Below are positions 1 through 44,202 of a stretch of DNA of 64,000 bases, one piece after another (positions within the stretch are counted from its first letter, which is position 1; every line of letters begins with the position of its first letter). Source of the stretch: Actinacidiphila paucisporea (GTDB lineage Bacteria; Actinomycetota; Actinomycetes; Streptomycetales; Streptomycetaceae). The notes under the pieces are model-generated. The model did no database searches. It saw nothing but the letters and a program-made list of their open reading frames with translations, and had not been told where the DNA came from. The DNA is taken from positions 63,014 to 127,013 of the forward strand of contig NZ_FRBI01000001.1 in the NCBI RefSeq assembly GCF_900142575.1. Direction: 5' to 3'. The position numbers were made by a program, and so were the translations under genes.

Positions 1-950
1 GCCATGTGCTCCCCGCGCCCGCGGGGCTGTTCCCACCGCGACGGGCACGGCCGGGTCGAGCAGCAGGTGCTCCCCGCGCCCGCGGGGCTGTTCCCCAGCC
101 GACGACCGCCGTGACCAGGTCCGGGATGTGCTCCCCGCGCCCGCGGGGCTGTTCCCGCGGCAGGCACTCTCCTGATCGTCGCCGGTATGTGCTCCCCGCG
201 CCCGCGGGGCTGTTCCCACCACGCAGACGGTGGCGGGCGCGGTCGCCACGTGCTCCCCGCGCCCGCGGGGCTGTTCCCAGCGAACGCCCCTGTCTGGCTT
301 TCGGGCCGGGGTGCTCCCCGCGCCCGCGGGGCTGTTCCCGGCTGGTCAGAAGGTTTCTGATGGAGGTGACGGTGCTCCCCGCGCCCGCGGGGCTGTTCCC
401 ACGACAGTCCGGCCGCCGCGCCATCGGCATCGAGTGCTCCCCGCGCCTGCGGGGCTGTTCCCCCCGAGGGCGGCATCACGGCGGAGATCGGCCGGTGCTC
501 CCCGCGCCTGCGGGGCTGTTCCCGTTTCCCGTAGCAGGGTCCGGCCGAGCTGGATGTGCTCCCCGCGCCTGCGGGGCTGTTCCCACCCTCTCCGGGCAAC
601 CGGAGGCGCCCCCCATGTGCTCCCCGCGCCTGCGGGGCTGTTCCCTGCTCGATCATCGACGCGGCCGACGGGTCGACCGTGCTCCCCATACCCGCGGGGC
701 TGTTCCCTCGGTGATCTGGTACTCGGTGTAGTTCGGGGAGTGCTCCCCGTCCCCGTGGGGCTGTTCCCAAGGCCACATCGCGGACCGCGTTCGCCCGTGC
801 GTGCTCCCTGCGCCTGCGGGGCTGTTCCCATCACGGAGCCATCATGCAGAACACACCTGCCGTGCTCCCCGCGCCTGCGGGGCTGTTTCCCCGTCGGTGG
901 ACCTCGCCGAGCAGGTCGCTGAGTGCTCTCCCGCATGTGGGGCAGTTCCC
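1..950 (+). CRISPR. CRISPR array 1, type I-E (left part outside window)
   Basis: Fifteen 29-nt repeats start at 6, 67, 128, 189, 250, 311, 372, 434, 495, 556, 617, 679, 740, 801 and 862, separated by 32-nt (twice 33-nt) spacers. A degenerate sixteenth repeat lies at 923-950. The core is palindromic, CCCCGC-GCCY-GCGGGG, giving the stem-loop that Cas6e cleaves in type I-E systems. Repeats 1-7 have GCCC in the loop and repeats 8-11, 14 and 15 have GCCT; repeats 12 and 13 carry stem changes, those of 13 keeping G-U pairs. The decayed last repeat marks the leader-distal end, so the leader and newest spacers should be left of position 1 and transcription runs toward cas3. All visible spacers differ. 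Confidence 0.97.
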
Positions 951-1189
951 CGCTTGCCCGGCGCGTCGTAACGACTGGACCCACGCCGACGTGCGCGAGG
1001 GGCGAGTCGGAAGCGATAAAACTGCTCGTTTTCGGCGGCGCGAGAGGGCGCGGCGGGCGAGCCTTTGGCCGCGCGCCTTCCTACGGCGAGGGAAGCCCCC
1101 GTTTGAGAGTCGAGACTATCCCTCTTTTCGATCAGATGTGGTCAATTTCGGCCAGTTCATCGGATCATCACTCCGCGCTGGGATCGGCG

Positions 1190-4100
1190 ATGTCGAATAT
1201 GCCAGTGACTTTCAACCACACCTCGTTCAGCTCAGCCTTCGACGGGCTGTCCGTCGCCGCGCGCCGGGCGTGGGGGAAGCACGATCGGAAGACCGAGGGG
1301 TGGCTGCCGCTCAGGCAGCACATGGCGGACAGCGGTGCGGTCGCCGGGAAGCTTTGGGACGAGTGGCTGCCGAGGAACGTCAAGGGGCTCATCGCTGAGG
1401 CACTGCCTGGTCGCTTGGGGGACGGGCGGCGGCTCGCCGTCTGGTTGGCGGCCGTGCACGACGCCGGGAAGGCAACGCCGGCTTTCGCGTGCCAGGTGGA
1501 CTCCCTCGCGGACGCGATGCGCGGAGTCGGGCTCGACATGCCGTACCAGAAACAGTTCGGCGACGATCGGAAGTTGGCACCGCACGGGCTGGCCGGGCAG
1601 CTGCTCATCCAGGAGTGGTTGGCGGAGCGGCACGGGTGGTCGGGGAGGGTCAGCGGGCAGTTCGCGATCGTGGCCGGGGGACACCACGGGGTGCCGCCTG
1701 GGCATCAGAGGATTCACGACCTGCTGCTGCACCCGGAGTTGATTCGGACACCGGGTGCGAGTGACTGGACGTGGAAGGGCGTGCAGTTCGAACTGCTGGA
1801 CGCCTGTGCGCAGGCAGCAGGGGTGCATGGCCGGTTCGCCGACTGGAACTCGGTGAGGCTGCCGCAGCCGGTCCAGGTGGCGCTCACTGCGATAGTGATC
1901 CTCTCCGACTGGATAGCAAGCTCTGCCGAACTCTTCCCTTACGTCTCCGTGGACGGGAAGGGCGGGCGTACGGCCGAGGACCGGCTGGACGCGGCCTGGA
2001 GGGGGCTCGACCTGCCGGCGGCCTGGGCGCCCGAGGAGCCCACGGGCACGGCTGCGGAGCTGTTCGCGGCGCGGTTCGACCTACCGGCCGGTGCCGGTAT
2101 CAGGCCGGTACAGGAGGCGGCCGTGCGGCTGGCCCGGGAGATGGACCCCGCGGGCCTGCTGATCATCGAAGCGCCGATGGGTGAAGGAAAGACGGAGGCG
2201 GCACTCGCCGCCGCTGAGATCCTGGCGGCGCGTACGGGCGCGGGCGGCTGCCTGGTGGCGCTGCCCACGCGGGCGACCGGCGACGCGATGTTCGCCCGCC
2301 TTTTGAAGTGGCTGGACCACCTTCCGGATGACGGTCCGCGCTCGGTGTTTCTGGCGCACGCTAAAGCGGCGCTGAACGACGCATGGGCGGGACTGGTCCG
2401 CGGTGGCAACCGCACGATCGCCGCAGTCGACGTGGACGGGCCGCAGAAGGTGTCCGCGCCCGGCGCGGCGGTGCGGAGCGGCCCCTCGGGCCTGCAGGCG
2501 CACCAGTGGCTGCGCGGGCGCAAGAAAGGAATGCTGGCGTCGTTCTCGGTGGGGACGATCGACCAGGTGCTGTTCGCGTCACTCAAGAGCCGCCATCTCG
2601 CCCTTCGCCACCTCGCCCTCGCGGGCAAGGTAGTGGTGATCGACGAAGTCCACGCGTACGACGCGTACATGAACTCCTACCTGGAACGCGTATTGGAGTG
2701 GCTGGCCGCTTATCGCGTGCCGGTCATCCTGCTGTCCGCGACTCTTCCTGCGGCGCGCAGGAGTGCACTTGCCCAGGCGTATGCGGGTGGGGGCCGGGAG
2801 GTGGCGCCCCTTGCTGAGGACGCGTATCCGCGGCTCACGGCTGTTTCGCAGGACGGGGGCCTACGTGAGGTGCGGCCGCCCGCGGCGTCCGGTCGCCGAA
2901 CGGAGATCCGAATGGAGCCGATCGATGACGACCTGACGACACTGGCGCTTCGGCTGGAGGTCGAGCTTGCCGACGGCGGCTGCGCCCTGGTCGTGCGGAA
3001 CACAGTCGACCGCGTGCTGAGCACGGCCGAGCGCCTCCAGGACCGCTTCGGCGAGGGTCGGGTCACGGTCATGCACTCCCGATTCCTGGCCGCCGACCGG
3101 GCCCGCAAGGATGCCGAGTTGCTGGCGATGTTCGGCCCGGACGGGAAGCGTCCCGAAGGTGCGCATATCGTCGTGGCGAGCCAGGTCGTGGAGCAGTCGC
3201 TGGACGTCGACTTCGACCTGCTGGTCACCGACCTGGCCCCGGTTGACCTGATGTTGCAGAGGATGGGGCGTCTGCACCGTCATCCGCGCACTCGGCCGGC
3301 CCGCCTCCGGGCGCCACGTTGCCTCGTCACCGGCACGGACTGGGCATGCGATCCGCCGGAGCCGATACGCGGGTCGACCGGGATCTACGGCGGCTCGTAT
3401 CTACTGCTTCGGGGGCTCGCTGTCCTTCGGCAGCACTTGGAGGGGCGGCCTTTGCGGCTCCCGGACGACATCAGCCCGCTCGTCCAGGCGGCCTACGGCG
3501 ACGGTCAAGCAGGGCCCGGGGAGTGGGAGGCGCCCCTGGGTGAGAGCCGTGCGGCGTACCAGAAGCTGCTTGCCGGGAAGCGCGAGCGCGCCGAAATCTT
3601 CCGGCTCGGGCCCGTACGCCGGGCGGGGCGCCCGGTGATCGGCTGGGTCGACGCGGGAGTCGGTGACGCGGACGACACCCGCGAGGGGCGGGCCCAGGTG
3701 CGGGACAGTGAGGAGAGCGTCGAGGTGCTGGTGGTCCAGCGCCGACGGGACGGGACATTGGCCACTGTGCCCTGGCTGGACAAGGGGCGCGGCGGACTGG
3801 ATCTTCCCGAGCACGCTCCGCCGTCTCCTAGGGCGGCCGCGGCCGTGGCCGCGAGCGCGCTGACACTTCCATGGCACTTCTCCAAGCCCTGGGTCATCGA
3901 CCGCACCATCGCGGAGCTGGAGCGTTTCCAGGTCGGCGCGTGGCAGGTCAAGGAATGTCCCTGGCTGGCAGGGGAGCTGCTGCTCGTCCTCGACGAGGAC
4001 TGTCAGACCCGCCTGTCAGGCTTCGACCTCCGGTACAGCCGGTCCGACGGGCTCATGGTGACGCCCGTCGGTGCACCTCACACAAGGGTGGTGGACCGCG

Positions 4101-5794
4101 TGTCCTCCTTCGACCTGGTCTCCCGGCCGTGGCTTCCCGTGCAGCGCCGCGACGGGACGACGGTGGAGCTGTCGCTGCGGGACGTCTTCGCCGAGGCGGG
4201 CAAGCTGCGGCGACTCGTCGGGGACGTGCCCACGCAGGAGTTCGCGCTGCTGCGACTGCTGCTCGCAATCCTGCACGACGCAGTGGACGGCCCCGCGGAG
4301 ATCGAGGACTGGGGTGAACTCTGGGAGTCCCACGATGCGTTCTCCGTCGTACCGGACTACCTTGAACGCCACCGCGACCGGTTCGATCTCCTCCATCCAC
4401 ATCATCCGTTCTTCCAAGTAGCCGGTCTACACACGGAGAAGGACGAGGTCGGGCCTCTGCACCGGATCGTCGCCGACGTCCCGAACGGTGATCCGTTCTT
4501 CAGCATGCGGCAGCCCGGCCCCGACAAGCTGAGCTTCGCGGAAGCCGCCCGATGGCTGGTGCACGTACATGCCTTCGACGTGTCGGGCATCAAGTCGGGC
4601 GCCGTCGGCGATCCACGGGTCAAGGGCGGCAAGGGCTATCCGCAGGGCGTCGGATGGGCTGGCAACCTCGGCGGCGTGTTCGCTGAGGGCAGCACCTTGC
4701 GGGAGACCCTGCTGCTCAACCTCATCGCGGGGGACAACGACTTCCTCCAGGCTGAGAAGAGCGACCGGCCCGCGTGGCGCCGGCCGCAGTGCGGGCCCGA
4801 GCCGATCGAGGCCGATTCGGAGGAGCTGCGCCCGTCAGGCCCACGGGACCTCTATACGTGGCAGAGCCGGCGCATAAGGCTGCGCGCTACTCAAGATGGC
4901 GTGACCGGTGCCGTTCTCGCTTACGGTGACGCGCTGCAGCCGCACAACAAGCACGTCCGCGAACCCATGACGAGCTGGCGCCGCAGCGCCCCTCAGGAGA
5001 AGAAGCTCGGGTGGCCGAAGGTTTTCATGCCTCAGCAGCATGACCCTGCTCGGGCGGCGTGGCGCGGGCTGGCTGCGCTCCTCGGCGACCAGGGCAGACA
5101 GCGCGAGAGTCCCGAGCAGCGGCAGGATGCCGAGAAGTCGCTGGCGCCGGGGGTCGTCACGTGGCTCTCCCGACTCGCGGTCGATGAGTACCTGCCGCCG
5201 TTGAGCCTCATCCGTACGCGGATCGTCGGGGCGAGCTACGGCACGCAGCAGTCCGTCATCGACGAGATCGTGGACGACGCGGTGGTGCTCCCCGTCGTCG
5301 TCCTGCACGAAGAACGCCCCCTGTACGGGCGGGCTGCGGTCGACGCCGTAGCCGACGCGGACGCCGCGGTCACCGCGCTCGGGTATCTGGCCGGCAACCT
5401 CGCCCGTGCCGTCGGTTCCGACCCCGGCCCTCCCACCGCCACGGCACGTGACCTGGGTTTCGCCACGTTGGACGGCCCGTACCGCCGCTGGCTGAGGGGG
5501 TTGGGTGGGAGTTCGGACCCGCTGCGGTCGCGCGGGGACTGGCAGGTGATCGTCTCCGAGGCGGTCCGTGACCTCGGCCGCCACCTGCTGGACAGCGCGG
5601 GGCCTGCCGCTAGCGAGGGGAGGCTGTCGGCCATGCCGGACGGCAAGACCCGCTGGTTGAACGACGCACAGGCCGATCTGTGGTTCCGCACGCGCCTCAA
5701 TGTCGTCCTTCCTGAGGCGGCGGCCAGGCGAGTGACGGTGAGCCCGTCAGCCGTGCGGGGGTCAGACGACGAAGCAACGGAGTCACCAGAATGA
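1190..5794 (+). CDS. cas3-cse1: Cas3-Cse1 (Cas3-CasA) fusion protein
   Basis: This 1534-residue protein joins the type I-E nuclease-helicase Cas3 to the large Cascade subunit Cse1 (Cas8e). Residues 1-about 260 are the HD nuclease (H44, H90-D91). The SF2 helicase follows, with Walker A MGEGKT at 330-335, DEVH at 485-488, an LSAT motif and QRMGRLHRH as motif VI. Cas3 ends near 965, and Cse1 starts near 971 with the typical SFDLVSRPWLPV sequence. Free Cas3 is about 900 residues and Cse1 about 500, so both halves are full length. Such fusions are known in some Streptomyces. I chose ATG 1190 (GGGA upstream) because the longer frame runs into the CRISPR array; ATG 1136 is an alternative. Positions 951-1189 upstream show no certain promoter. 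It heads the cas operon. Confidence 0.95.
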   Translation: MSNMPVTFNHTSFSSAFDGLSVAARRAWGKHDRKTEGWLPLRQHMADSGAVAGKLWDEWLPRNVKGLIAEALPGRLGDGRRLAVWLAAVHDAGKATPAFACQVDSLADAMRGVGLDMPYQKQFGDDRKLAPHGLAGQLLIQEWLAERHGWSGRVSGQFAIVAGGHHGVPPGHQRIHDLLLHPELIRTPGASDWTWKGVQFELLDACAQAAGVHGRFADWNSVRLPQPVQVALTAIVILSDWIASSAELFPYVSVDGKGGRTAEDRLDAAWRGLDLPAAWAPEEPTGTAAELFAARFDLPAGAGIRPVQEAAVRLAREMDPAGLLIIEAPMGEGKTEAALAAAEILAARTGAGGCLVALPTRATGDAMFARLLKWLDHLPDDGPRSVFLAHAKAALNDAWAGLVRGGNRTIAAVDVDGPQKVSAPGAAVRSGPSGLQAHQWLRGRKKGMLASFSVGTIDQVLFASLKSRHLALRHLALAGKVVVIDEVHAYDAYMNSYLERVLEWLAAYRVPVILLSATLPAARRSALAQAYAGGGREVAPLAEDAYPRLTAVSQDGGLREVRPPAASGRRTEIRMEPIDDDLTTLALRLEVELADGGCALVVRNTVDRVLSTAERLQDRFGEGRVTVMHSRFLAADRARKDAELLAMFGPDGKRPEGAHIVVASQVVEQSLDVDFDLLVTDLAPVDLMLQRMGRLHRHPRTRPARLRAPRCLVTGTDWACDPPEPIRGSTGIYGGSYLLLRGLAVLRQHLEGRPLRLPDDISPLVQAAYGDGQAGPGEWEAPLGESRAAYQKLLAGKRERAEIFRLGPVRRAGRPVIGWVDAGVGDADDTREGRAQVRDSEESVEVLVVQRRRDGTLATVPWLDKGRGGLDLPEHAPPSPRAAAAVAASALTLPWHFSKPWVIDRTIAELERFQVGAWQVKECPWLAGELLLVLDEDCQTRLSGFDLRYSRSDGLMVTPVGAPHTRVVDRVSSFDLVSRPWLPVQRRDGTTVELSLRDVFAEAGKLRRLVGDVPTQEFALLRLLLAILHDAVDGPAEIEDWGELWESHDAFSVVPDYLERHRDRFDLLHPHHPFFQVAGLHTEKDEVGPLHRIVADVPNGDPFFSMRQPGPDKLSFAEAARWLVHVHAFDVSGIKSGAVGDPRVKGGKGYPQGVGWAGNLGGVFAEGSTLRETLLLNLIAGDNDFLQAEKSDRPAWRRPQCGPEPIEADSEELRPSGPRDLYTWQSRRIRLRATQDGVTGAVLAYGDALQPHNKHVREPMTSWRRSAPQEKKLGWPKVFMPQQHDPARAAWRGLAALLGDQGRQRESPEQRQDAEKSLAPGVVTWLSRLAVDEYLPPLSLIRTRIVGASYGTQQSVIDEIVDDAVVLPVVVLHEERPLYGRAAVDAVADADAAVTALGYLAGNLARAVGSDPGPPTATARDLGFATLDGPYRRWLRGLGGSSDPLRSRGDWQVIVSEAVRDLGRHLLDSAGPAASEGRLSAMPDGKTRWLNDAQADLWFRTRLNVVLPEAAARRVTVSPSAVRGSDDEATESPE

Positions 5795-6513
5795 CAACGA
5801 ACACTGCTGCCGCAAGTCCGACTGCACGAGGCCACCGCGATCGCGGCCCCGTTGCTGATGCCGCCGACCGTTGCATCAAACGGCTCCAGTACGGCTACCG
5901 CCAGGATCACCCTTCCGCGGTTTCGACACTCGCCCGACTGCGACGGGGTGCGGGCCGCCCGGCGCACGACGTACAAGACCTGTGGGGCCTGACCGCCACC
6001 GACGAGCTGTCGGGCGCACTGGCGCTGCTCCCCGAGGACGAGCAGCGGAGATTCGACCACGACCGTGCCGAGGAAGCACTGCACCTTGCCGTGACGCTGT
6101 GGGCACTGCACCAACAGTCCCACCGTGAAGCCGACATGTATCTGCCGGGGCGCGGCCTGGGGCGAGCCGTCCGCATCCTGATGATCCCGCTCTCGGGCGG
6201 CGCGGAGAGTGCCATCCAAGCGGGCCGGGGTGACGAGGGCAGTGGGGCGCGAGCTGAACCGGTGCTCGATGAGCCGCTGCGCAGGCGGTTCGTACGTGTG
6301 GGCACGTCGAGTTCGTTCGAAGATCTCGCTCAACGGCTTCGCGAAATCGTGTTGCTGCTACGGCGATCCTCCATCGGGCTCGACTACGCGCTCCTTGCCG
6401 ATCAGCTCTACCGGTGGCAGCAGCCGGATCAACGCGCCGAAGTCCGCCGTGGATGGGGCAGGGACTTCCATCTCGCCGGCATAGCTCGCGGGGCGAACGC
6501 GCCGCAGGGCTGA
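5791..6513 (+). CDS. cse2: Cascade small subunit Cse2 (CasB)
   Basis: This 240-residue, Arg-rich helical protein matches Cse2, the type I-E small subunit, two copies of which bind along the crRNA backbone and stabilise the target R-loop. Family features are the early ALALLPEDEQ-type helix, the HLAVTLWALHQQS helix and the C-terminal LLADQLYRWQ...RRGWGRDF block. Its ATG overlaps the TGA of cas3-cse1 by four bases, which indicates translational coupling. The N-terminal 25 residues and the GGAESAIQAGRGDEGSGA loop look like low-complexity insertions typical of high-GC actinomycetes; the protein is somewhat longer than E. coli Cse2 (about 160 residues). Confidence 0.93.
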   Translation: MTTNTAAASPTARGHRDRGPVADAADRCIKRLQYGYRQDHPSAVSTLARLRRGAGRPAHDVQDLWGLTATDELSGALALLPEDEQRRFDHDRAEEALHLAVTLWALHQQSHREADMYLPGRGLGRAVRILMIPLSGGAESAIQAGRGDEGSGARAEPVLDEPLRRRFVRVGTSSSFEDLAQRLREIVLLLRRSSIGLDYALLADQLYRWQQPDQRAEVRRGWGRDFHLAGIARGANAPQG

Positions 6514-6551
6514 CATCCCCCCGACTTCATGACCTTAGGAATCGATCACCC

Positions 6552-7766
6552 GTGACGCAGAACCACGACACACGAACCATCCTCGACGTGCACATCCTCC
6601 AGACCGTGCCACCGAGCAACATCAACCGAGATGACACCGGTTCGCCCAAGACCGCGGTATACGGCGGTGTCCGCCGCTCCCGTGTCTCCAGCCAGGCCTG
6701 GAAGCGTGCGACCAGGAAGAAATTCGAGGAACTGCTGGACCCCTCGGAGCTCGGCGTCAGGACGAAGAAGGTCGCCGAGGCCCTCGCAGACCGCGTGGCC
6801 GCCCTCGACCCGTCGCTCGACCGGAACACCGCCCTGGAACTCGCCGCCGAGACCCTGCGAACCGCAACCGGCTCCAAGATCGAAGCGCCCAAACGCAAGG
6901 TCAAGGACGGTGAGCCGGAACCGGCTCCCGAGTCCTCCTATCTGATGTTCCTCAGTGCGCAACAGCTCGACTCTCTAGCCGAGCTGACCGTCAAAGGCGC
7001 GGAGGACAAGGGCGACATCAAGGTGCTCAAGGAGTTCTTCAAGGACAAGGAGAACAAGGCCCGCGCCCGCCAACTGGTCGACAGCAGGCACTCGGTGGAC
7101 ATCGCCCTGTTCGGCCGCATGGTGGCTGACGCCACCGACCTCAACGTCGAAGCGGCCACCCAGGTCGCGCATGCTCTCAGCGTGCACGCCGTGGACAATG
7201 AGTCCGACTACTACACCGCCGTCGACGACCGGAACACCGACGCCGAGTCCGGAGCGGGAATGATCGGCGTCGTCGACTTCAACTCCGCCACGCTCTATCG
7301 CTACGCGGCGCTCGATGTGAACCGCCTGCACACGAACCTCGGTGCCGGGCTGAAGGAGGACGAACCGTTCGGCGCACCGACCCGGCGGGCGGTCGAGGCC
7401 TTCCTCGAAGGCTTCATCACCTCCCTGCCCACCGGCAAGGTCAACACCTTCGGCAACCACACTCTGCCGACCGCCGTCATCGTCAAGCTCCGCACGAAGC
7501 GCCCCATCAGCTTCGTCGCCGCCTTCGAGAGGGCCGTGACCCAGGGCGCTGAGGGGGGCTTCGTCCGGGAGGCGTGCACGCGACTGGCCCGCTACGTACC
7601 GGATTTGGAAAAGGCGTACGGGGTTGCGGACGCCGACCGTACGTGGGTCGTGCGGGTGGGCGAGGACGCAGAACCGCTGGCCGGCCTCGGACAGGAAACG
7701 GACATCGCGGGTCTCGTCTCGTCCGTGAGTGCGGCCGTTGCGGACAGGCTGGAGCCCGGGGCATGA
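6552..7766 (+). CDS. cas7e: Cascade backbone subunit Cas7e (Cse4/CasC)
   Basis: A 404-residue RAMP protein that forms the six-copy crRNA-binding backbone of Cascade. The N-terminal LDVHILQTVPPSNINRDD and the following KTAVYGGVRRSRVSSQAWKR are hallmark Cas7e sequences. I start it at GTG 6552, preceded by an AGGA about 11 nt upstream. The open frame continues upstream to 6414 but overlaps cse2 and lacks family similarity there. The gap from cse2 is 38 bp, and the stop overlaps the start of cas5e (ATGA). The charged segment KVKDGEPEPAPES near residue 120 is a likely loop insertion. Confidence 0.96.
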   Translation: MTQNHDTRTILDVHILQTVPPSNINRDDTGSPKTAVYGGVRRSRVSSQAWKRATRKKFEELLDPSELGVRTKKVAEALADRVAALDPSLDRNTALELAAETLRTATGSKIEAPKRKVKDGEPEPAPESSYLMFLSAQQLDSLAELTVKGAEDKGDIKVLKEFFKDKENKARARQLVDSRHSVDIALFGRMVADATDLNVEAATQVAHALSVHAVDNESDYYTAVDDRNTDAESGAGMIGVVDFNSATLYRYAALDVNRLHTNLGAGLKEDEPFGAPTRRAVEAFLEGFITSLPTGKVNTFGNHTLPTAVIVKLRTKRPISFVAAFERAVTQGAEGGFVREACTRLARYVPDLEKAYGVADADRTWVVRVGEDAEPLAGLGQETDIAGLVSSVSAAVADRLEPGA

Positions 7767-8467
7767 GCGTGCTCCTGCTGCGGCTGGCCGGTCCCCTCCA
7801 GGCCTGGGGATCGGCCGCCCGCTTCGTACGCCGCACCACCGAGAACGCACCCACCAAGAGTGGCGTTCTCGGCCTTCTCGCCGCTGCCGAGGGCCGTTCT
7901 CGTGAGGCTGACCTCTCAGATCTGGGCGCGCTGCGATACGGCGTCCGGATCGACCAACCGGGCACGCGGGTACGGGATTTCCAGACGGCGCATCACTTCG
8001 TCACCGACAAGTCCATGCCGCTGTCCGAGCGCTTCTACTTGGCCGACGCAGTTTTCGTGGCGGCCGTCGAGGGTGACCGGGACGACGTCCACCGCCTGTA
8101 CGCAGCCGTGCAGGAGCCGGTGTATCTGCCCTACCTCGGGCGCCGGTCATGTCCGCCGGCAGCACCCGTCGACCTCGGGGTACGGGACGACACCGACCTT
8201 GTCGGTGCGCTGGAGCAGGCTCCGTGGCAGGCGTCGCCTTGGTATCGGGCCAGGAAGCGTACGCAGGCGGAGCTCACCCTCCTCCTCGACAGCATGCCGG
8301 GTGAGGAGCCCGAACTCAGCCTGCGTGACGAGCCGCTCAGCTTCGACCCACGGCACCGGCGGTACGGGCTTCGCGGCGTCACCTCACGGCCGGTGGCCGT
8401 CCCGGCTTCCGGGTCGGCCAAGCAGCCGCCCGAGCATGATCCGACCTCCGTCCTGGGAACCTCGTGA
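7763..8467 (+). CDS. cas5e: Cascade subunit Cas5e (CasD)
   Basis: A 234-residue RAMP protein. The start MSVLLLRLAGPLQAWGS is the diagnostic Cas5e opening, followed by the conserved PTKSGVLGLLAAA helix and the VRDFQTAHHF block. Cas5e caps the 5' handle of the crRNA inside Cascade and contacts Cse1. Length is normal for the family (about 225-250). Its ATG overlaps the cas7e stop by four bases and its TGA overlaps the cas6e start, so the Cascade genes are tightly coupled. The last 25 residues (after SRPVAVPASG) are Pro/Ser-rich and probably disordered. Confidence 0.96.
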   Translation: MSVLLLRLAGPLQAWGSAARFVRRTTENAPTKSGVLGLLAAAEGRSREADLSDLGALRYGVRIDQPGTRVRDFQTAHHFVTDKSMPLSERFYLADAVFVAAVEGDRDDVHRLYAAVQEPVYLPYLGRRSCPPAAPVDLGVRDDTDLVGALEQAPWQASPWYRARKRTQAELTLLLDSMPGEEPELSLRDEPLSFDPRHRRYGLRGVTSRPVAVPASGSAKQPPEHDPTSVLGTS

Positions 8468-9168
8468 TGTATCTGACCCGCTTCCGCATCAACACCGCCC
8501 GCCGCGAGGGGCGGGAGCTGCTCGGCTCCCCTCACCGTATGCACGCCGCGGTGAACATGTCTTTCCCCGACCTGCTGTCGCGCGACGGCTCCGGTCCGCG
8601 CGTGCTGTGGCGTGTCGACCGCAACTCCGCTGCGGAGGTGCTGCTCTTCGTCGTCAGTCCCACCCGTCCTGACCTCACGCACCTCGTGGAGCAGGCGGGT
8701 TGGCCAGCCGCCTCCGACACGCCAGGCTGGCACACCTACGACTACGGGTCTTTCCTCGACCGGCTCGCCCGCGGCAGCACGTGGTCCTTCCGCCTCACCG
8801 CCAACCCGGTGCACTCCATCCGCCGCAAGGAAGGCGAGCCGACCAAGCGGACCGCGCACATCACCGCCCGGCACCAAGCGGCATGGTTGCTCAGCAAGCA
8901 GAGCCAGGGCGGATTCGAGATCACCTCGAAGGAACCGGGCGCGCGGCTGCTGGAGCACCGCGACGAGCACCAGTTGGTCGTCCGCGACAAGCGGGACCTG
9001 CAGTTCGCCAAAGCCTCGGAGCGCCGGACGGTAACCCTTACGGCCGTCACCTACGACGGCCGCCTCACCGTCACCGACCCCGAGGTGCTGCGCCGCACCC
9101 TCACCCAGGGGCTCGGCAAGGCGAAGGCGTACGGCTGCGGGCTCATGACGCTCGCCCCGGTGCGGTGA
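8464..9168 (+). CDS. cas6e: CRISPR pre-crRNA endoribonuclease Cas6e (CasE)
   Basis: A 234-residue Cas6e that cuts pre-crRNA at the base of the repeat stem-loop and stays bound to the 3' handle. MYLTRFRIN opens the first ferredoxin-like fold. HRMHAAV around residues 24-30 carries the conserved catalytic-region histidines. The glycine-rich loop GLGKAKAYGCGLMTL near the C terminus is a family signature. The frame can begin at GTG 8464 or at ATG 8467, which falls directly after; I keep 8464 for the outer boundary. The repeats here have the stable GC stem expected for this enzyme. Confidence 0.96.
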   Translation: MMYLTRFRINTARREGRELLGSPHRMHAAVNMSFPDLLSRDGSGPRVLWRVDRNSAAEVLLFVVSPTRPDLTHLVEQAGWPAASDTPGWHTYDYGSFLDRLARGSTWSFRLTANPVHSIRRKEGEPTKRTAHITARHQAAWLLSKQSQGGFEITSKEPGARLLEHRDEHQLVVRDKRDLQFAKASERRTVTLTAVTYDGRLTVTDPEVLRRTLTQGLGKAKAYGCGLMTLAPVR

Positions 9169-9171
9169 CCG

Positions 9172-10125
9172 ATGGCCACCGTCGGTCGGCGGGCCGCCGC
9201 CACCCCGCGTGAGCTCACCCGCGTCGGCGACCGGATCTCCTTCGTCTATCTGGAGCGGTGCGTCGTCCACCGTGACGACAACGCGATCACCGCGGAGGAC
9301 GCGGACGGCGTTACCCACATTCCGTCCGCGACGATCGGCACTCTGCTGCTCGGCCCCGGCACCCGCATCACCCACCAGGCGATGACCGTCCTCGGTGACT
9401 CGGGTGCCGGTGTGGTCTGGGTCGGCGAGCACGGCGTCCGCTTCTATGCCGGGGGCCGGGCTTTGACCCGCTCCTCCGGTCTGGTCGAAGCGCAAGCCCT
9501 GGCATGGGCCAGCCCCCGTAGGCGACTTGACGTCGCCCGCGCGATGTACCGGCTGCGCTTCCCCGACGAGGACCCCTCCGGGCACACCCGGCAGGAGCTG
9601 CTCAGCATGGAAGGGCGGCGGTTGAAGCGGTGCTACCGCGACGAGTCCGCCCGCACCGGCGTTTCTTGGCACCGCCGCGACTACCACCGCGACGACTTCT
9701 CCGCCGGCGACGCTCCGAATCAGGGCGTGACGGCCGCGGCTCAGTGCATGTACGGCATCGCCCACGCCGTGGTCGCGGCCCTCGGCTGCTCACCCGGGCT
9801 CGGCTTCGTCCACTCCGGCCACGAACGATCGTTCGTCCTCGACATCGCCGACCTGTACAAGACCGATGTCGCCATCCCGGCCGCCTTCGACGCGGCGAGC
9901 GAAGGCGTCGAGGACGTCGCAGCCCGTACCCGTCGTGCCTTGCGCGACCGCATCAACCAAGGTCGCCTGCTCGACCGTTGCGTCCAGGACATCAAGGACC
10001 TGCTCGGCTACGACGGCACCCGCGACACCTCGGGTGAGGGCGGCTCCGACCGCGTCACCCTCCAGTCCGACCACAGCGTCGAGCTTGAAGGCGGCCGCAA
10101 CTACGACTCCGAGATCATCTGGTGA
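9172..10125 (+). CDS. cas1: CRISPR adaptation integrase Cas1 (type I-E)
   Basis: A 317-residue Cas1, the metal-dependent integrase that inserts new spacers with Cas2. By alignment offset to the E. coli enzyme, the active-site residues are E147 (in SMEGRR), H214 (FVHSGHE) and D224/D227 (FVLDIADLYK); all are present, so the adaptation machinery looks intact. The gene starts 3 bp after the cas6e stop. The length is normal. The C-terminal tail after YDGTRDTSG is Gly/Asp-rich and probably flexible. Confidence 0.97.
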   Translation: MATVGRRAAATPRELTRVGDRISFVYLERCVVHRDDNAITAEDADGVTHIPSATIGTLLLGPGTRITHQAMTVLGDSGAGVVWVGEHGVRFYAGGRALTRSSGLVEAQALAWASPRRRLDVARAMYRLRFPDEDPSGHTRQELLSMEGRRLKRCYRDESARTGVSWHRRDYHRDDFSAGDAPNQGVTAAAQCMYGIAHAVVAALGCSPGLGFVHSGHERSFVLDIADLYKTDVAIPAAFDAASEGVEDVAARTRRALRDRINQGRLLDRCVQDIKDLLGYDGTRDTSGEGGSDRVTLQSDHSVELEGGRNYDSEIIW

Positions 10126-10135
10126 GGCCATACCG

Positions 10136-10498
10136 GTGACCGTCATCATCCTCACCAACTGCCCCGTCGGCCTCCGCGGCTTCCTGACCCGCTGGCTGCT
10201 GGAAATCTCCCCGGGCGTCTTCATCGGCACACCCACCGCCCGCCTGCGGGACACCCTCTGGGCCGAAGTCCGCCAATACGCCAACCAAGGCCGCGCTCTG
10301 CTCGCCTACCAGACGGACACGGAACAGGGCTACACCTTCCGCACCCACGACCACGCCTGGCACCCCATCGACCATGAGGGCCTCACCCTGATCCACCGCC
10401 CCAACCCGAACCGCCCCCGCGGCAACCACCCGTCTCCGAGCACGCCTCGGACCGGATGGAGTAAGGCCGCGAAGCGTCGGAAGTTCGGAGGAAAGTGA
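10136..10498 (+). CDS. cas2: CRISPR adaptation protein Cas2 (type I-E)
   Basis: A 120-residue Cas2e. The opening VTVIILTNCPVGLRGFLTRW and the GVFIGTPTARLRDTLW segment are typical of the I-E subfamily, which dimerises between two Cas1 dimers and holds the prespacer. I start it at GTG 10136, 10 bp after cas1; the longer open frame upstream overlaps cas1 and is not coding. The C terminus after NRPRGNHPSP is basic and Pro/Ser-rich, longer than in E. coli Cas2 (94 residues). It is the last gene of the operon; the array 2 leader follows. Confidence 0.95.
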   Translation: MTVIILTNCPVGLRGFLTRWLLEISPGVFIGTPTARLRDTLWAEVRQYANQGRALLAYQTDTEQGYTFRTHDHAWHPIDHEGLTLIHRPNPNRPRGNHPSPSTPRTGWSKAAKRRKFGGK

Positions 10499-10653: not shown

Positions 10654-11232
10654 GTGCTCCCCGCGCCCGCGGGGCTGTTCCCTCGATCCAGCCGGAAATC
10701 GACGCTCTGGCGAAGTGCTCCCCGCGCCCGCGGGGCTGTTCCGACCATGCCGGCGTCGTCCGTGACGTCACCGGTGTGCTCCCCGCGCCCGCGGGGCTGT
10801 TCCCCGGCCGCGCGCCCGGTCAGGCCCGTCGTCATCGTGCTCCCCGCGCCCGCGGGGCTGTTCCCGCGCGCCCCTCCGTGCTCCGCATCCAGTACCGGTG
10901 CTCCCCGCGCCTGCGGGGCTGTTCCCGAACTGGTCTTCCAGCCGGCCATCCTGCCGAAGTGCTCCCCGCGCCTGCGGGGCTGTTCCCGTCCCCGGTTTCC
11001 CAGTGCCGAAGATGGCAACCGTGCTCCCCGCGCCTGCGGGGCTGTTCCTTCGTAGCGGCTCGGCGGGCCGCCCTGTTGGGCGTGCTCCCCGCGCCTGCGG
11101 GGCTGTTCCCGGGCAGGACAACACCAACCCGCTGGCTGCTCAGTGCTCCCCGCGCCCGCGGGGCTGTTCCCTCGCTGAAACCCGTGCAGATGATGATGGC
11201 GACGTGCTCCCCGCGCCCGCGGGGCTGGCCTC
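10654..11232 (+). CRISPR. CRISPR array 2, type I-E
   Basis: Ten repeats of the same 29-nt family as array 1 start at 10654, 10715, 10776, 10837, 10898, 10959, 11021, 11082, 11143 and 11204. There are nine spacers, eight of 32 nt and one of 33. Repeats 1-4, 9 and 10 carry loop GCCC and repeats 5-8 carry GCCT. Repeat 2 ends in G and repeat 7 in T instead of C. The tenth repeat decays after GGGGCTG, marking the leader-distal end. The array reads in the same direction as the cas operon. Confidence 0.97.
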
Positions 11233-11347
11233 TGGCCCGGCCCCTCGGTTGAACCATGATCAGGACGAGGTGCGGACGGCGTCCGAGGCTTTCGGCGATA
11301 GGCCGGCCATACGGCCAGGTCAGGGGGCCGGCGCTGGGGACACGTAT

Positions 11348-11402
11348 GCGGACTGTAAATCCGTCGGCTTAGCCTACCGTGGTTCGAATCCACGTGCCGC
11401 CA
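11348..11402 (+). pseudogene. 3' fragment of tRNA-Tyr(GTA), probable attachment-site scar
   Basis: The anticodon arm (GCGGA-CTGTAAA-TCCGT, anticodon 11355-11357), the long variable arm, the T arm (CGTGG-TTCGAAT-CCACG) and the 3' acceptor strand plus discriminator of a bacterial tRNA-Tyr are all present. The sequence upstream has no D arm and no 5' acceptor strand able to pair with TGCCGCC; the best placement gives five of seven pairs and no D stem. Only the 3' 55 nt remain, the type of segment that tRNA-directed integrases duplicate. It sits 115 bp after CRISPR array 2. A decayed tRNA gene without integration is the alternative. Confidence 0.8.
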
Positions 11403-11407
11403 CATGG

Positions 11408-11450
11408 AAAGGTCCCTGACCTGCAGCGATGCAGGTCAGGGACCTTTGTT
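11408..11450. terminator. Rho-independent terminator after tRNA-Tyr fragment
   Basis: A perfect 18-bp stem (11408-11425 with 11430-11447) closes a 4-nt GCGA loop and is followed by a T-rich run (TTTGTTTTG). It works in principle on both strands. Its place directly after the tRNA 3' end suggests it is the original terminator of a tRNA-Tyr gene. Confidence 0.9.
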
Positions 11451-11576
11451 TTGCCCGGGCGGGGCGCCCGTCCCAGCCGGTACCGTTCCGGCCCGCCGCC
11501 GTGCGCCTGGTCAGCTTCGGCCCTCCCCGCACCCGCGGGGCTCCTGCCCGGACGCGGGTCGCGGTCCGGGCGGAGG

Positions 11577-19634: not shown

Positions 19635-20675
19635 GTGCACCCTCTCGCCCCGTACACCACCCTCCGCCTCGGCGGCCCCGCCACCCGCCTGCTCACCGCC
19701 CGCACGGACGCCGACCTCGTCGCCGCCGTCCGCGACGCCGACTCCCGCGGCGAGCCCGTCCTCCTCATCGGCGGCGGCAGCAACCTCCTCATCGCCGACG
19801 AGGGCTTCGACGGCACCGCCGTCCGCATCGCCACCCAGGGCACCACCCTCCGCGGCACGACCCTCGAACTCGCCGCCGGCGAGCCCTGGAGCGACGCCGT
19901 GGCCGCGACCGTGCGCGCGGGCCTGGCCGGCATCGAGTGCCTGGCCGGCATCCCCGGCTCGGCCGGCGCGACCCCGATCCAGAACGTCGGCGCCTACGGC
20001 CAGGAAGTCTCCAGCACCATCACCGACGTCCTCGCCTACGACCGCAGGACCGCCGAGACGGTCACCCTCCCCGCCGCCGAGTGCGCCTTCTCCTACCGCA
20101 GCAGCCGCTTCAAGGAGGACCCGGCCCGCTACGTCGTGCTGCGCGTGCGGTTCGCGCTGGAGGACGCCGGCGGCCTGTCCGCGCCGCTGAAGTACGCGGA
20201 GACCGCCCGTGCCCTCGGCGTCGAGCCCGGCGAGCGGGTGCCGCTGGACAAGGCCAGCGCGACGGTGCTCGGGCTGCGCGCGAGCAAGGGCATGGTGCTG
20301 GACGAGGCCGACCACGACACCTGGTCGGCCGGCTCCTTCTTCACCAACCCGGTGCTGACCGCCGCCGAATTCGCCGCGTTCCTGGACCGCGTCCACGACC
20401 GCCTGGGTCCGGACACGGCGCCGCCGGCCTATCCGGCGGAGGGCGAGCGTACGAAGACGTCCGCGGCCTGGCTGATCGACAAGGCGGGATTCACCAAGGG
20501 CTACGGCACGGGCCCGGCCCGTATCTCCGGCAAGCACACGCTCGCGCTGACGAACCGCGGCGCCGCCACCACCGACGACCTGCTCACCCTGGCCCGCGAG
20601 GTACGCGACGGCGTCCACGCGGCTTTCGGCGTGACGCTGGTGAACGAGCCGGTGATGGTCGGCGTGCGCCTCTGA
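19635..20675 (+). CDS. murB: UDP-N-acetylenolpyruvoylglucosamine reductase
   Basis: A 346-residue cytoplasmic flavoenzyme that reduces the enolpyruvyl group to make UDP-MurNAc for peptidoglycan. The FAD domain begins with YTTLRLGGPA and VLLIGGGSNLLIADEGF. GIECLAGIPGSAGATPIQNVGAYGQE is the signature of MurB, and the catalytic serine lies in WSAGSFFTNPV. AAWLIDKAGFTKGYG and HTLALTNRGAATT complete the type I domain 3. GTG 19635 is used. It is single in this window and essential by family knowledge. Confidence 0.97.
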   Translation: MHPLAPYTTLRLGGPATRLLTARTDADLVAAVRDADSRGEPVLLIGGGSNLLIADEGFDGTAVRIATQGTTLRGTTLELAAGEPWSDAVAATVRAGLAGIECLAGIPGSAGATPIQNVGAYGQEVSSTITDVLAYDRRTAETVTLPAAECAFSYRSSRFKEDPARYVVLRVRFALEDAGGLSAPLKYAETARALGVEPGERVPLDKASATVLGLRASKGMVLDEADHDTWSAGSFFTNPVLTAAEFAAFLDRVHDRLGPDTAPPAYPAEGERTKTSAAWLIDKAGFTKGYGTGPARISGKHTLALTNRGAATTDDLLTLAREVRDGVHAAFGVTLVNEPVMVGVRL

Positions 20676-20684
20676 CCCGGGACC

Positions 20685-22502
20685 GTGCCCACTCTCGACG
20701 CGCTGATCGGCTCGGCGCCCGCCCGGCTCCGCCGCACCGGCCAGGTGCCGGGCGAGGGCGACCGGCAGGTCGTGGGGGTGTGGCCGGCCGACCCGGCGAA
20801 CACCCCGGCCCGCGAGCGCGGCTGGCGCGACGTGCTGGCCGTGCTGGAGCCGGAGCAGGAGCAGGCCCCTGACGTCGGCGCGCTGGCGCAGGCGGGCGCG
20901 GCGGCGCTGGCCGTCGGCGAGCCGGCCCCGCCCGGGATACTGGCGGCCGCCGCCCGGCACCGGCTGCCGGTGCTGCTGGCCGACAAGGACATGTGCACGG
21001 TGCCGCGGCTCGCGCAGCTGCTCGCCGACCGGGAGGCGGCGGCCGGCCGCCGCGCCCAGGAGCTGCTGGAGAGTGCCAAGCAGCTCTCGACGGCGCCCGG
21101 CAGCGCGGCCGGAGTGCTGCGCTGGCTGGCGCGGATGACCGGCGGCCAGGCCGTCCTGCTCGCCCCGCACCGCCCCGCGCCCCCGCTCAGCGGCGGCCTG
21201 CGGCTGCCGGCCGACCGGATCGCGGCGCTGACCGACGGCACGACGCAGGCCGCAGCGGCGGACGTGGGGGCGTGGACGGTACGGCTGTACGCCCTCGGCC
21301 CGGCGGCGCCGCACCACGTGCTGGCGGTGGCGCGGGCCCGGGAGGCCGGCTGGCCGCAGCCGGCCACGGAGGCGGTGACGATGGCGGAGGTGCTGCTGTC
21401 GTCGTGGCTGCGGCTGCGGGCCGCGGTGGACGGCGAGCGGGCGCCGATACGTTCCTCGGTGCTGCAGATGCTGATGGCGGGCCAGGTGCTGGCGGCCAGG
21501 CGGGCGGCGCACCCGCTGGGGATGAGCCCGGCGGTGCTCGGCGCGGACGGGGAGGTGCGCGTCTACGTGGTCGGCGGCCGGGCCGCCCACCGGGACACGC
21601 TGGTGTCGGCCTGCCATTACCACCTGGGCGACGAGGGGCTCGTCGTCGGATGCCCGGTCGACGAGGACCAGGTGATCATCGTCGCGACGCCCGACGCGCC
21701 CACGGAGGCGCTGCTGCGCGACCTGGTCACCCGCCGGGAGGGCTTCCGGCTCGGGGCGAGCCGCCCGGTGCCGCTGGAGGGCGTCGCGGAGGCGCACGGC
21801 GAGGCGACACGGGCGCTGGCCGCGGCCGGCACCCACGCGGACCGCTTCGCGGTCTTCACGCCGGACGTCGAACTCGTACGCATCCTGCCGCCCGCGGCGG
21901 CGGCCCGGTGGGCGGCGGCGCTGCTGGCCCCGCTGGACACCTGGCCGCACGCCCGCCGGGCGGAGTGGCTGGACGGGATGCGGATGTGGCTGGCGTACGG
22001 CCCGATCGGCGCGGCCCGCCTGGCCGGTTACCACCGCAACACGGCGCGGCAGCGGGCGGAGGCGGTGGGGCGGCTGCTCGGCCTCGACCTCGCCCGGCTC
22101 GCCGACCGGATACGGCTCGACCTGGCCCTGCGGATAGCCGCGCTGGACGGACCCGCCCCCGGACCTGCGCAAGGACCCGTCCCCGATCTCGGCGAGCTGC
22201 TGGCGGGAGACGGCCCGCGGCGCTGGGCCGAGGAGTATCTCGGCCGGCTGGACGGGGATCTGCTGCCGACGGTGCTGACGTGGATCGAATCCGGCCAGCA
22301 CACGCCGAGCGCGGCGGCCCGTCTCGGGGTGCACCCGAAGACGGTGGCGGCCCGGGTGCGCCGGGCGGAGGCGCAGGTGCGCCAGCCGCTGGTCCCGCAC
22401 CCCGAGGCGCGGGGCGCGACCCCGGAGTCGGCGAACGGGGTGAGCGGGGTGCACGATCTCGCCCTGGCCGCGCACATCACCCGGGCGCTCAGCCTAGGGT
22501 GA
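20685..22502 (+). CDS. PucR-type helix-turn-helix regulator
   Basis: A 605-residue protein that ends in the PucR C-terminal HTH domain: LLPTVLTWIESGQHTPSAAARLGVHPKTVAARVRRAE (about residues 525-561). A second HTH-like block, GAARLAGYHRNTARQRAEAVGRLLG, lies near 440. The N-terminal part resembles the purine-catabolism (PucR) sensing region. Target genes are not evident, though adenosine deaminase lies 250 bp downstream on the other strand. GTG 20685 begins 9 bp after murB, so the two may be co-transcribed. Confidence 0.8.
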   Translation: MPTLDALIGSAPARLRRTGQVPGEGDRQVVGVWPADPANTPARERGWRDVLAVLEPEQEQAPDVGALAQAGAAALAVGEPAPPGILAAAARHRLPVLLADKDMCTVPRLAQLLADREAAAGRRAQELLESAKQLSTAPGSAAGVLRWLARMTGGQAVLLAPHRPAPPLSGGLRLPADRIAALTDGTTQAAAADVGAWTVRLYALGPAAPHHVLAVARAREAGWPQPATEAVTMAEVLLSSWLRLRAAVDGERAPIRSSVLQMLMAGQVLAARRAAHPLGMSPAVLGADGEVRVYVVGGRAAHRDTLVSACHYHLGDEGLVVGCPVDEDQVIIVATPDAPTEALLRDLVTRREGFRLGASRPVPLEGVAEAHGEATRALAAAGTHADRFAVFTPDVELVRILPPAAAARWAAALLAPLDTWPHARRAEWLDGMRMWLAYGPIGAARLAGYHRNTARQRAEAVGRLLGLDLARLADRIRLDLALRIAALDGPAPGPAQGPVPDLGELLAGDGPRRWAEEYLGRLDGDLLPTVLTWIESGQHTPSAAARLGVHPKTVAARVRRAEAQVRQPLVPHPEARGATPESANGVSGVHDLALAAHITRALSLG

Positions 22503-42072: not shown

Positions 42073-44202
<2,130 letters not shown>

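Follow-up and report, generated by a model that had tools for sequence, protein, structure and literature searches.

Type I-E CRISPR-Cas locus in the window

The window, a 64,000-nucleotide stretch of contig C32 of the Actinacidiphila paucisporea genome (G000), begins within a CRISPR-Cas locus whose arrays and genes all lie on the + strand. The right part of CRISPR array B (6 to 889; 15 repeats at up to 7 mismatches) is followed by a cas3-cse1 fusion (923 to 5794, open reading frame bounds), cse2 (5791 to 6513), cas7 (6414 to 7766, likewise open reading frame bounds), cas5 (7763 to 8467), cas6 (8464 to 9168), cas1 of type I-E (9172 to 10125), an open reading frame whose cas2 domain runs from residue 92 on (9866 to 10498), and array C (10654 to 11231; 10 repeats). 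With cas3, cse1, cse2, cas7, cas5, cas6, a type I-E cas1, cas2 and adjacent arrays present, the locus was assigned to type I-E. Cas3 and Cse1 share one frame of up to 1,623 aa, and open frames of 1,548-1,729 aa were found at Cse1 in 10 relatives. The last repeat of array C agrees in its first 24 nt only, and the right arm of the element described below comes next.

Array B continues to the left of the window with 9 further repeats (C32 60777-61292). It is interrupted by a run of 1,715 N at C32 61299-63013, and the repeat counts exclude that part. Because these N cross array B, the link between the left part of the element, here called E2, and the cas genes is provided by the scaffold and by the same gene order in three relatives (G006, G024 and G005). 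Array A, with 25 repeats at up to 7 mismatches, lies in that left part, between the attachment copy att2 and the integrase gene int2. Within it, spacers 8-9 equal spacers 10-11, an adjacent pair being repeated (C32:44334-44549), which suggests a duplication within the array.

A tRNA-Tyr fragment at the right border

The 55 nt at 11348-11402 are identical to the last 55 nt of an intact tRNA-Tyr(GTA) gene at G000:C32:21484-21565, which lies to the left, at 52.8 kb from the fragment and 41 kb before the window starts. The finding of a tRNA-Tyr 3' fragment at this position is thereby confirmed, and the intact gene with identical 3' sequence stands to the left, where the earlier note had expected it. 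Identity with the intact locus extends 6 nt beyond the tRNA, to 11408, for a total of 61 bp; this segment (11348 to 11408, + strand) is referred to as att3 and forms the right border of the island. The fragment has the orientation of the arrays and cas genes, as the note had also stated. Shuffling the window 50 times never gave a tRNA-Tyr match longer than 13 nt, and with 11301-11450 removed the longest match in the unshuffled window was 10 nt.

The 5' half of the tRNA is missing at the fragment, where 8 of 27 bases agree, which bears out the claim that only the 3' 55 nt remain. ARAGORN called a whole tRNA-Tyr at 11323-11403. Rfam scored the intact tRNA-Tyr at 51.4 bits and gave no tRNA match to the window copy at E<=1. 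Because Rfam scores the intact gene and not the window copy, the ARAGORN call was judged false, and the fragment is taken to have no complete cloverleaf. Fragments of this kind, mis-called as tRNAs where integrated elements end, are documented (PMC9897764). At G024's att copy, too, ARAGORN reports a whole tRNA, there a tRNA-Ser.

Immediately to the right, at 11410-11445 (+ strand), a perfect 16-bp inverted repeat with a 4-nt loop and a T-rich tail was identified by eye. It is likely the tRNA-Tyr terminator of this clade and agrees with the tRNA-type terminator that the note had placed directly after the fragment; a pattern scanner recovered a 5-bp stem alone within that repeat (11433-11445). 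To the left of the fragment, the right arm of E2 (11256 to 11347, + strand) resembles the right-hand ends of the G034 and G015 elements at tRNA-Tyr. It has GATCAGGACGAG..GGACGG and also ACACGTATGCG in common with G015.

Two elements between three att copies

Three copies of the att core occur on C32, at 21511 (att1), 43325 (att2) and 74361 (att3), and their pairwise identical blocks are 58, 61 and 93 bp long. The 93-bp block is shared by att3 and att2 and spans 11351 to 11443 of the window. The order along the contig is tRNA-Tyr/att1, a first element (E1), att2, E2, att3 and chromosome, with E1 at about 21.57-43.32 kb (21.8 kb) and E2 at about 43.38-74.36 kb (31 kb). The cas genes and both arrays seen in the window lie inside this island, as had been claimed. 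Gene bounds left of the window were taken from a simple script based on open reading frames and codon composition, with no gene caller.

E1 encodes a tyrosine integrase beside the tRNA (identified by Pfam), Prim-Pol (1.1e-32), SSB, PolA, a C5 methylase, an FtsK-type translocase (FtsK_SpoIIIE, 1.2e-9) and a GntR regulator. It thus combines a tyrosine integrase at a tRNA 3' att site and a direct repeat at its other end with a TraB-type FtsK/SpoIIIE translocase and replication functions, and on this gene content we class it as an AICE. Its own family A DNA polymerase and SSB sit next to Prim-Pol (C32:27331-29202).

E2 comprises array A, int2, a 98-aa protein, an FtsK-like 696-aa protein, three GntR regulators, a glycosyltransferase, an HATPase, 331-aa and 188-aa proteins, array B, the genes from cas3-cse1 to cas2, and array C. 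The integrase gene int2 (C32 45475-46848, - strand) was recognised by PHROGs (1e-25), with no match in Pfam; by eye its product shows R..RHxxVS..Y, which we take to be an integrase motif. In the RAGHS motif, Q replaces H in int2 and its kin from G015, G002 and G034, and H is present in the other six aligned integrases. The 696-aa protein is FtsK/SpoIIIE-like by PHROG (5.2e-25); it gave no Pfam match and scored 0.0022 against the NCBIfam TraB model, far under that model's cut-off. A tyrosine integrase, direct repeats in a tRNA 3' end and a TraB/FtsK-type translocase are the marks of an AICE, and by its predicted proteins E2 is an AICE-like element with its own integrase. AICE replication initiators are of the RepSA, RepAM and RepPP types; none of these was recognised among the E2 proteins scanned, several of which have no family. 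Scans with Pfam, NCBIfam or both, which excluded the 331-aa protein, gave no usable family for those of 98, 301, 83, 126, 149 and 188 aa. A CIME has att copies on both sides and no recombination or transfer genes of its own, and E2, with int2 and the FtsK-like gene, falls outside that class.

The note had advised looking for an integrase or excisionase. Integrases were found, one beside the tRNA and a second inside the island; no excisionase was identified by sequence, and the 98-aa protein of E2 is an excisionase candidate by position.

Empty and occupied tRNA-Tyr sites in relatives

A 44-base tRNA-Tyr pattern, allowing up to 2 mismatches, was searched in 34 genomes of the genus. It was found in 24, with one copy in 17, two copies in six and three copies in the window genome. 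We examined 11 of the 17 one-copy loci (G031, G020, G006, G011, G013, G026, G007, G003, G010, G005 and G030), and cas was absent from the fetched stretch at every one of them. At least one of the four genes right of att3 is kept beside tRNA-Tyr in 10 of these 11 loci, the exception being G005.

The cleanest empty site is that of G031, where one intact tRNA-Tyr continues into the right flank known from the window. Positions 20001-21602 and 74361-80000 of C32 align to one stretch of G031 at about 92% on both sides, except at C32 74511-74580, to the right of the terminator, where the two differ locally. Relatives without the island were thus predicted correctly: they have the whole gene, not the fragment, next to the sequence right of 11408. 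The site is occupied elsewhere in the genus. The E2 backbone stands at tRNA-Tyr, with no cas genes, in G015, G002 and G034, whose integrases are 83-87% identical to int2, and an E1-type element stands there with no E2-type element in G032.

The cas clade lies at tRNA-Ser(TGA) within the genus

Window Cas1 was used to search 35 genomes of the genus, its own included, and matches at 50% or less were left aside. Seven relatives have Cas1 at 81% or higher (G018 in two pieces). In all seven the cas genes are at a tRNA-Ser(TGA) site; at tRNA-Tyr they occur in the window genome only. They lie between att copies in G006, G024, G025 and G032, the last of these in a composite exceeding 75 kb, and they adjoin tRNA-Ser or an att copy in G018, G021 and G005, where no att copy was found right of cas. 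In G006 and G024 the E2 backbone and the same cas locus are both in tRNA-Ser(TGA), and the right end is a direct repeat of 60 or 83 bp of the tRNA 3' end. The window genome itself has one copy of the tRNA-Ser(TGA) pattern and no second; adjacent to it is a truncated Ser-type integrase (41% of the protein).

Two of these loci have further structure. In G025 (L078, L050 and L079), the Ser att copies are at C13:410920, 433400 and 445703, and cas and arrays lie between two att copies, to the right of an AICE-like element with an integrase split into two pieces. No integrase was found in the cas-only segment, which fits the pattern of a cis-mobilizable CRISPR module and would be a better CIME than E2. 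About 600 bp, comprising att, leader and first repeats, are duplicated left and right of this AICE in several exact blocks. The tRNA-Ser composite of G032 (contig C100) has four copies of the tRNA 3' end, one of them in the intact gene, and its cas genes are reversed.

A second group of cas loci, with Cas1 at 69-73%, was found in six genomes (G017, G002, G019, G015, G012 and G008). Its distance from tRNA-Ser(TGA) is about 500 kb in G002 and 326 kb in G008, and the two lie on different contigs in the other four.

Outside the genus, we took the best 80 of 271 Cas1 relatives in named genomes. A partial tRNA end was present in the fetched flank of four (L099, L117, L128 and L136) and a full tRNA in eight; the one Ser(TGA) end among those 80 was that of L099 (Actinacidiphila alni, the same locus as G025). 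Among named loci with Cas1 at 81% or higher, one of 11 (L099) had a tRNA-Ser(TGA) end in the fetched flank, and no such link appeared beyond the genus. These are undercounts, the comparison covering 15 tRNA kinds and flanks of at most 10 kb, and the att copies of L103 lie beyond its flank. The idea that I-E loci are generally linked to tRNA fragments was rejected on the basis of four partial ends in 80, one of them Ser(TGA).

Probable mixed ancestry of E2

E2 was scanned in 500-base steps against three tRNA-Tyr elements and four tRNA-Ser elements. Over 45.8-46.8 kb, which holds most of int2, the Tyr elements match at 78-84% and the Ser elements cover at most 7% of bases. Over 45.3-45.8 kb, where array A ends and the C-terminal part of int2 is encoded, the Tyr elements match at 89-91% and three Ser elements match in part at 65-76%. 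From 47.3 to 50.8 kb the Ser element of G006 matches at 91-94%, versus 74-89% for the Tyr elements. The cas genes match those of G006 at 83-92% and are absent from the three Tyr elements. An exception is the interval 53.3-54.3 kb, where the Tyr element of G015 is equal to or closer than G006. In G031, a Ser-type element with no cas genes has backbone proteins 83-100% identical to those of E2, and the tRNA-Tyr site is empty.

Trees of the integrase and of the transfer protein disagree on the placement of E2. In the integrase tree (13 rows), int2 groups with the Tyr-type integrases of G015, G034 and G002 (100/100), and in the FtsK-like protein tree (8 rows) the E2 protein groups with those of the Ser-type elements of G031 and G006 (99/99). 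With AU groups chosen after the trees had been viewed, forcing the E2 integrase with the Ser type was rejected (p 8.8e-7), as was forcing the FtsK-like protein with the Tyr type (p 3.7e-4) or with G015 alone (p 0.0075). The 188-aa protein groups with that of G031 (93/92). The 331-aa protein tree unites E2, G031, G006 and the Tyr element of G015 in a single clade (98/97), and the GntR2 tree, which contains two very long rows, leaves the same four unseparated. These two trees mean that not every gene divides neatly by site. For the FtsK-like protein, the Tyr elements taken without E2 only just hold together as a clade (AU p 0.048), and because of this and the less clear backbone trees, exchange between site types has probably taken place more than once. 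Taken together, E2 looks like a hybrid in which int2 and the att arms are of the tRNA-Tyr type and most of the remainder is closest to tRNA-Ser(TGA) elements.

Leader-repeat relics

In the chromosome right of att3, at 11506-11548 (+ strand), lies a relic of a CRISPR leader end with one decayed repeat. A pattern made from 11506-11530 matched once in the window and in none of 100 shuffles. The same motif occurs right of tRNA-Tyr in G020 and G006; it is also part of the leaders belonging to arrays A and B and to the cas locus of G006. From att2 to the first repeat of array A, the window genome is collinear with the G020 flank at 69%, and the flanks of G020 and G011 contain, by eye, an arm-like motif of E2-type left arms. 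Another leader-repeat relic lies near the right end of E1 (C32:42246-42287, or L006:2246-2287; motif at 42246-42270); no array or cas gene was found in E1. Remnants of earlier CRISPR-bearing elements at tRNA-Tyr would explain such relics, which may alternatively be those of an old resident array.

Origin of the island

The earlier note had read the fragment as the right border of a CRISPR-carrying island, and the evidence supports that reading. Beyond it are the two stacked elements, the three att copies, the third array, the likely hybrid nature of E2 and the connection to tRNA-Ser. We consider it very probable that two elements are stacked at the tRNA-Tyr 3' end and that E2 is a recombinant of two AICE-like elements, retargeted from Ser to Tyr. 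On the simplest reading, an ancestor would have held a Ser-type element, and such an element would have become E2 by acquiring integrase and attachment region from one of Tyr type. Thus a tRNA-Tyr element would have supplied int2 and the att arms, and an element of the tRNA-Ser(TGA) type the transfer genes and CRISPR-Cas. In circular E2 the exchanged region would be one continuous piece, made up of right arm, attP, left arm, array A and int2, and by its exchange a CRISPR-carrying element would have been retargeted from one tRNA to another. E2 would have inserted at the tRNA-Tyr 3' end, leaving a 3' copy at its right edge, and E1 would have inserted later at the rebuilt tRNA, displacing E2 rightward. 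Any of the three att pairs could in principle recombine, and circles of E1, of E2 or of both are predicted. Mobility, the direction of exchange and defence are inferred from sequence comparison, and the direction from Ser to Tyr by parsimony.

Several other histories were weighed. E1 and E2 could have arrived as one 53-kb composite, never stacked in this host, with att2 an internal relic; recombination is conceivable between any two att copies, and joint excision of tandem AICEs is described in Frankia (PMC3218068). We regard this as unlikely, given that E1-type elements occur alone at tRNA-Tyr in G032 and E2-type elements alone in G015, G002 and G034. The reverse course, with E2 the older element and the tRNA-Ser CRISPR elements derived from it by the opposite integrase exchange, draws on the fact that an unrooted comparison gives no direction. 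It appears quite unlikely in view of the seven relatives that have this cas clade at tRNA-Ser, with tRNA-Tyr used within the genus only here, of the same backbone at tRNA-Ser in G031, whose chromosome stretches are about 92% identical, and of the Ser-type integrase remnant kept in the window genome.

It has also to be asked whether CRISPR-Cas is native to the chromosome right of tRNA-Tyr, the att copies having arisen around it. Such a resident locus is favoured by the leader-repeat relics, which lie to the right of tRNA-Tyr in G020 and G006 and of att3 in the window, and by the collinearity of the att2 side of array A with the G020 flank. Against it stand the 11 single-copy tRNA-Tyr loci, none with cas in the fetched stretch, the tRNA-Ser position of the cas clade in seven of seven relatives of the genus, and the arm-like motif in the G020 and G011 flanks, by which the relics resemble remnants of earlier elements. 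We therefore disfavour a native locus as highly improbable. An odd second tRNA-Tyr gene, for which the ARAGORN call would argue, or a chance look-alike is refuted, so far as the sequence shows, by the lack of an Rfam match, by the poor agreement of the 5' half and by the short matches in shuffled sequence, and has practically no probability left.

A broader extension of the stacked, retargeted model seems to us doubtful as a whole. In the genus, CRISPR-Cas of the Cas3-Cse1 kind would chiefly belong to AICE-like elements and not to the host; it would travel and change tRNA site by integrase exchange, with arrays on both sides of the circle attP (array C, attP, array A), would act in the rivalry of elements for tRNA sites, and its arrays would be exchange seams.

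Relation to known systems

AICE stacking, co-excision and integrase exchange are already known, as is CRISPR on other ICEs. Accretion of AICEs at one tRNA, with possible cis-mobilisation, and one AICE family at different sites with divergent integrase and excisionase are described in Streptomyces (PMC9513070), and tandem AICEs that excise singly or together in Frankia (PMC3218068). The island resembles these AICEs, as those sources describe them, in integrase-driven insertion at a tRNA and in tandem elements between identical direct repeats; unlike them, E2 has as its cargo a whole type I-E CRISPR-Cas locus and three arrays. The word CRISPR is absent from the main text of PMC9513070.

CRISPR-Cas is cargo of integrating elements in other settings: on the Frankia T4SS-type ICE Fcci3350, where it is described as likely not functional (PMC3218068), on Mesorhizobium ICEMspSymAA22, with type I-C and no cas1, cas2 or cas4 (PMC8627217), and on SCCmec, with type III-A (PMC10434264). 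E2 is like these in that respect, but they belong to other element classes, with I-C in ICEMspSymAA22 and III-A in SCCmec, and, unlike in Fcci3350 and ICEMspSymAA22 as described, cas1 and cas2 are open reading frames in E2. In Streptomyces turgidiscabies PAISt an internal att splits the island and allows module-wise excision (PMC4057263), and the E2 island is also split by an att copy; unlike CIMEs and the PAISt modules, E2 has its own integrase and translocase. The type I-E system of Streptomyces avermitilis, likewise a streptomycete system and reported to be naturally active (PMC4762764), is similar by description, not by sequence. In the literature searched (on AICEs and actinomycete ICEs and on Streptomyces, with few subscription papers covered) we found no report of an AICE bearing CRISPR-Cas, and nothing on CRISPR in Actinacidiphila.

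Set side by side, empty and occupied sites point to an entire adaptive immune system that streptomycete relatives can gain, lose and shift from one tRNA gene to another as AICE-like cargo. Should E2 still be able to excise, immunity by CRISPR in these bacteria would be a trait open to transfer and loss, and this could account in part for how patchily it is spread.

Spacer matches

The arrays, minus the part in the N run, were compared with 50,697 phage records and gave weak matches only, some of them over repeats and none a convincing phage target. The best E values of the phage searches were 0.1, 0.3 (best 20 of 27 records), 0.004 and 0.04; in the last, 27 of 29 bases of the minor tail gene of phiBT1 match an array of the window genome. 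Comparison of its 55 spacers with the elements examined, outside arrays, gave none with at least 25 identities; one weak match of 22/25 was noted. For 517 spacers from this genome and its relatives, six matches (four distinct spacers) had at least 25 identities, compared with one for shuffled and one for reversed spacers. The best was a spacer of G006 array C that matches L091:7791-7822 of G018 at 30 of 32 bases, with a mismatch at the first base, in an SCO3933-family regulatory gene near AICE-like genes. This match is a lead to the possible targeting of one element by the CRISPR system of another.
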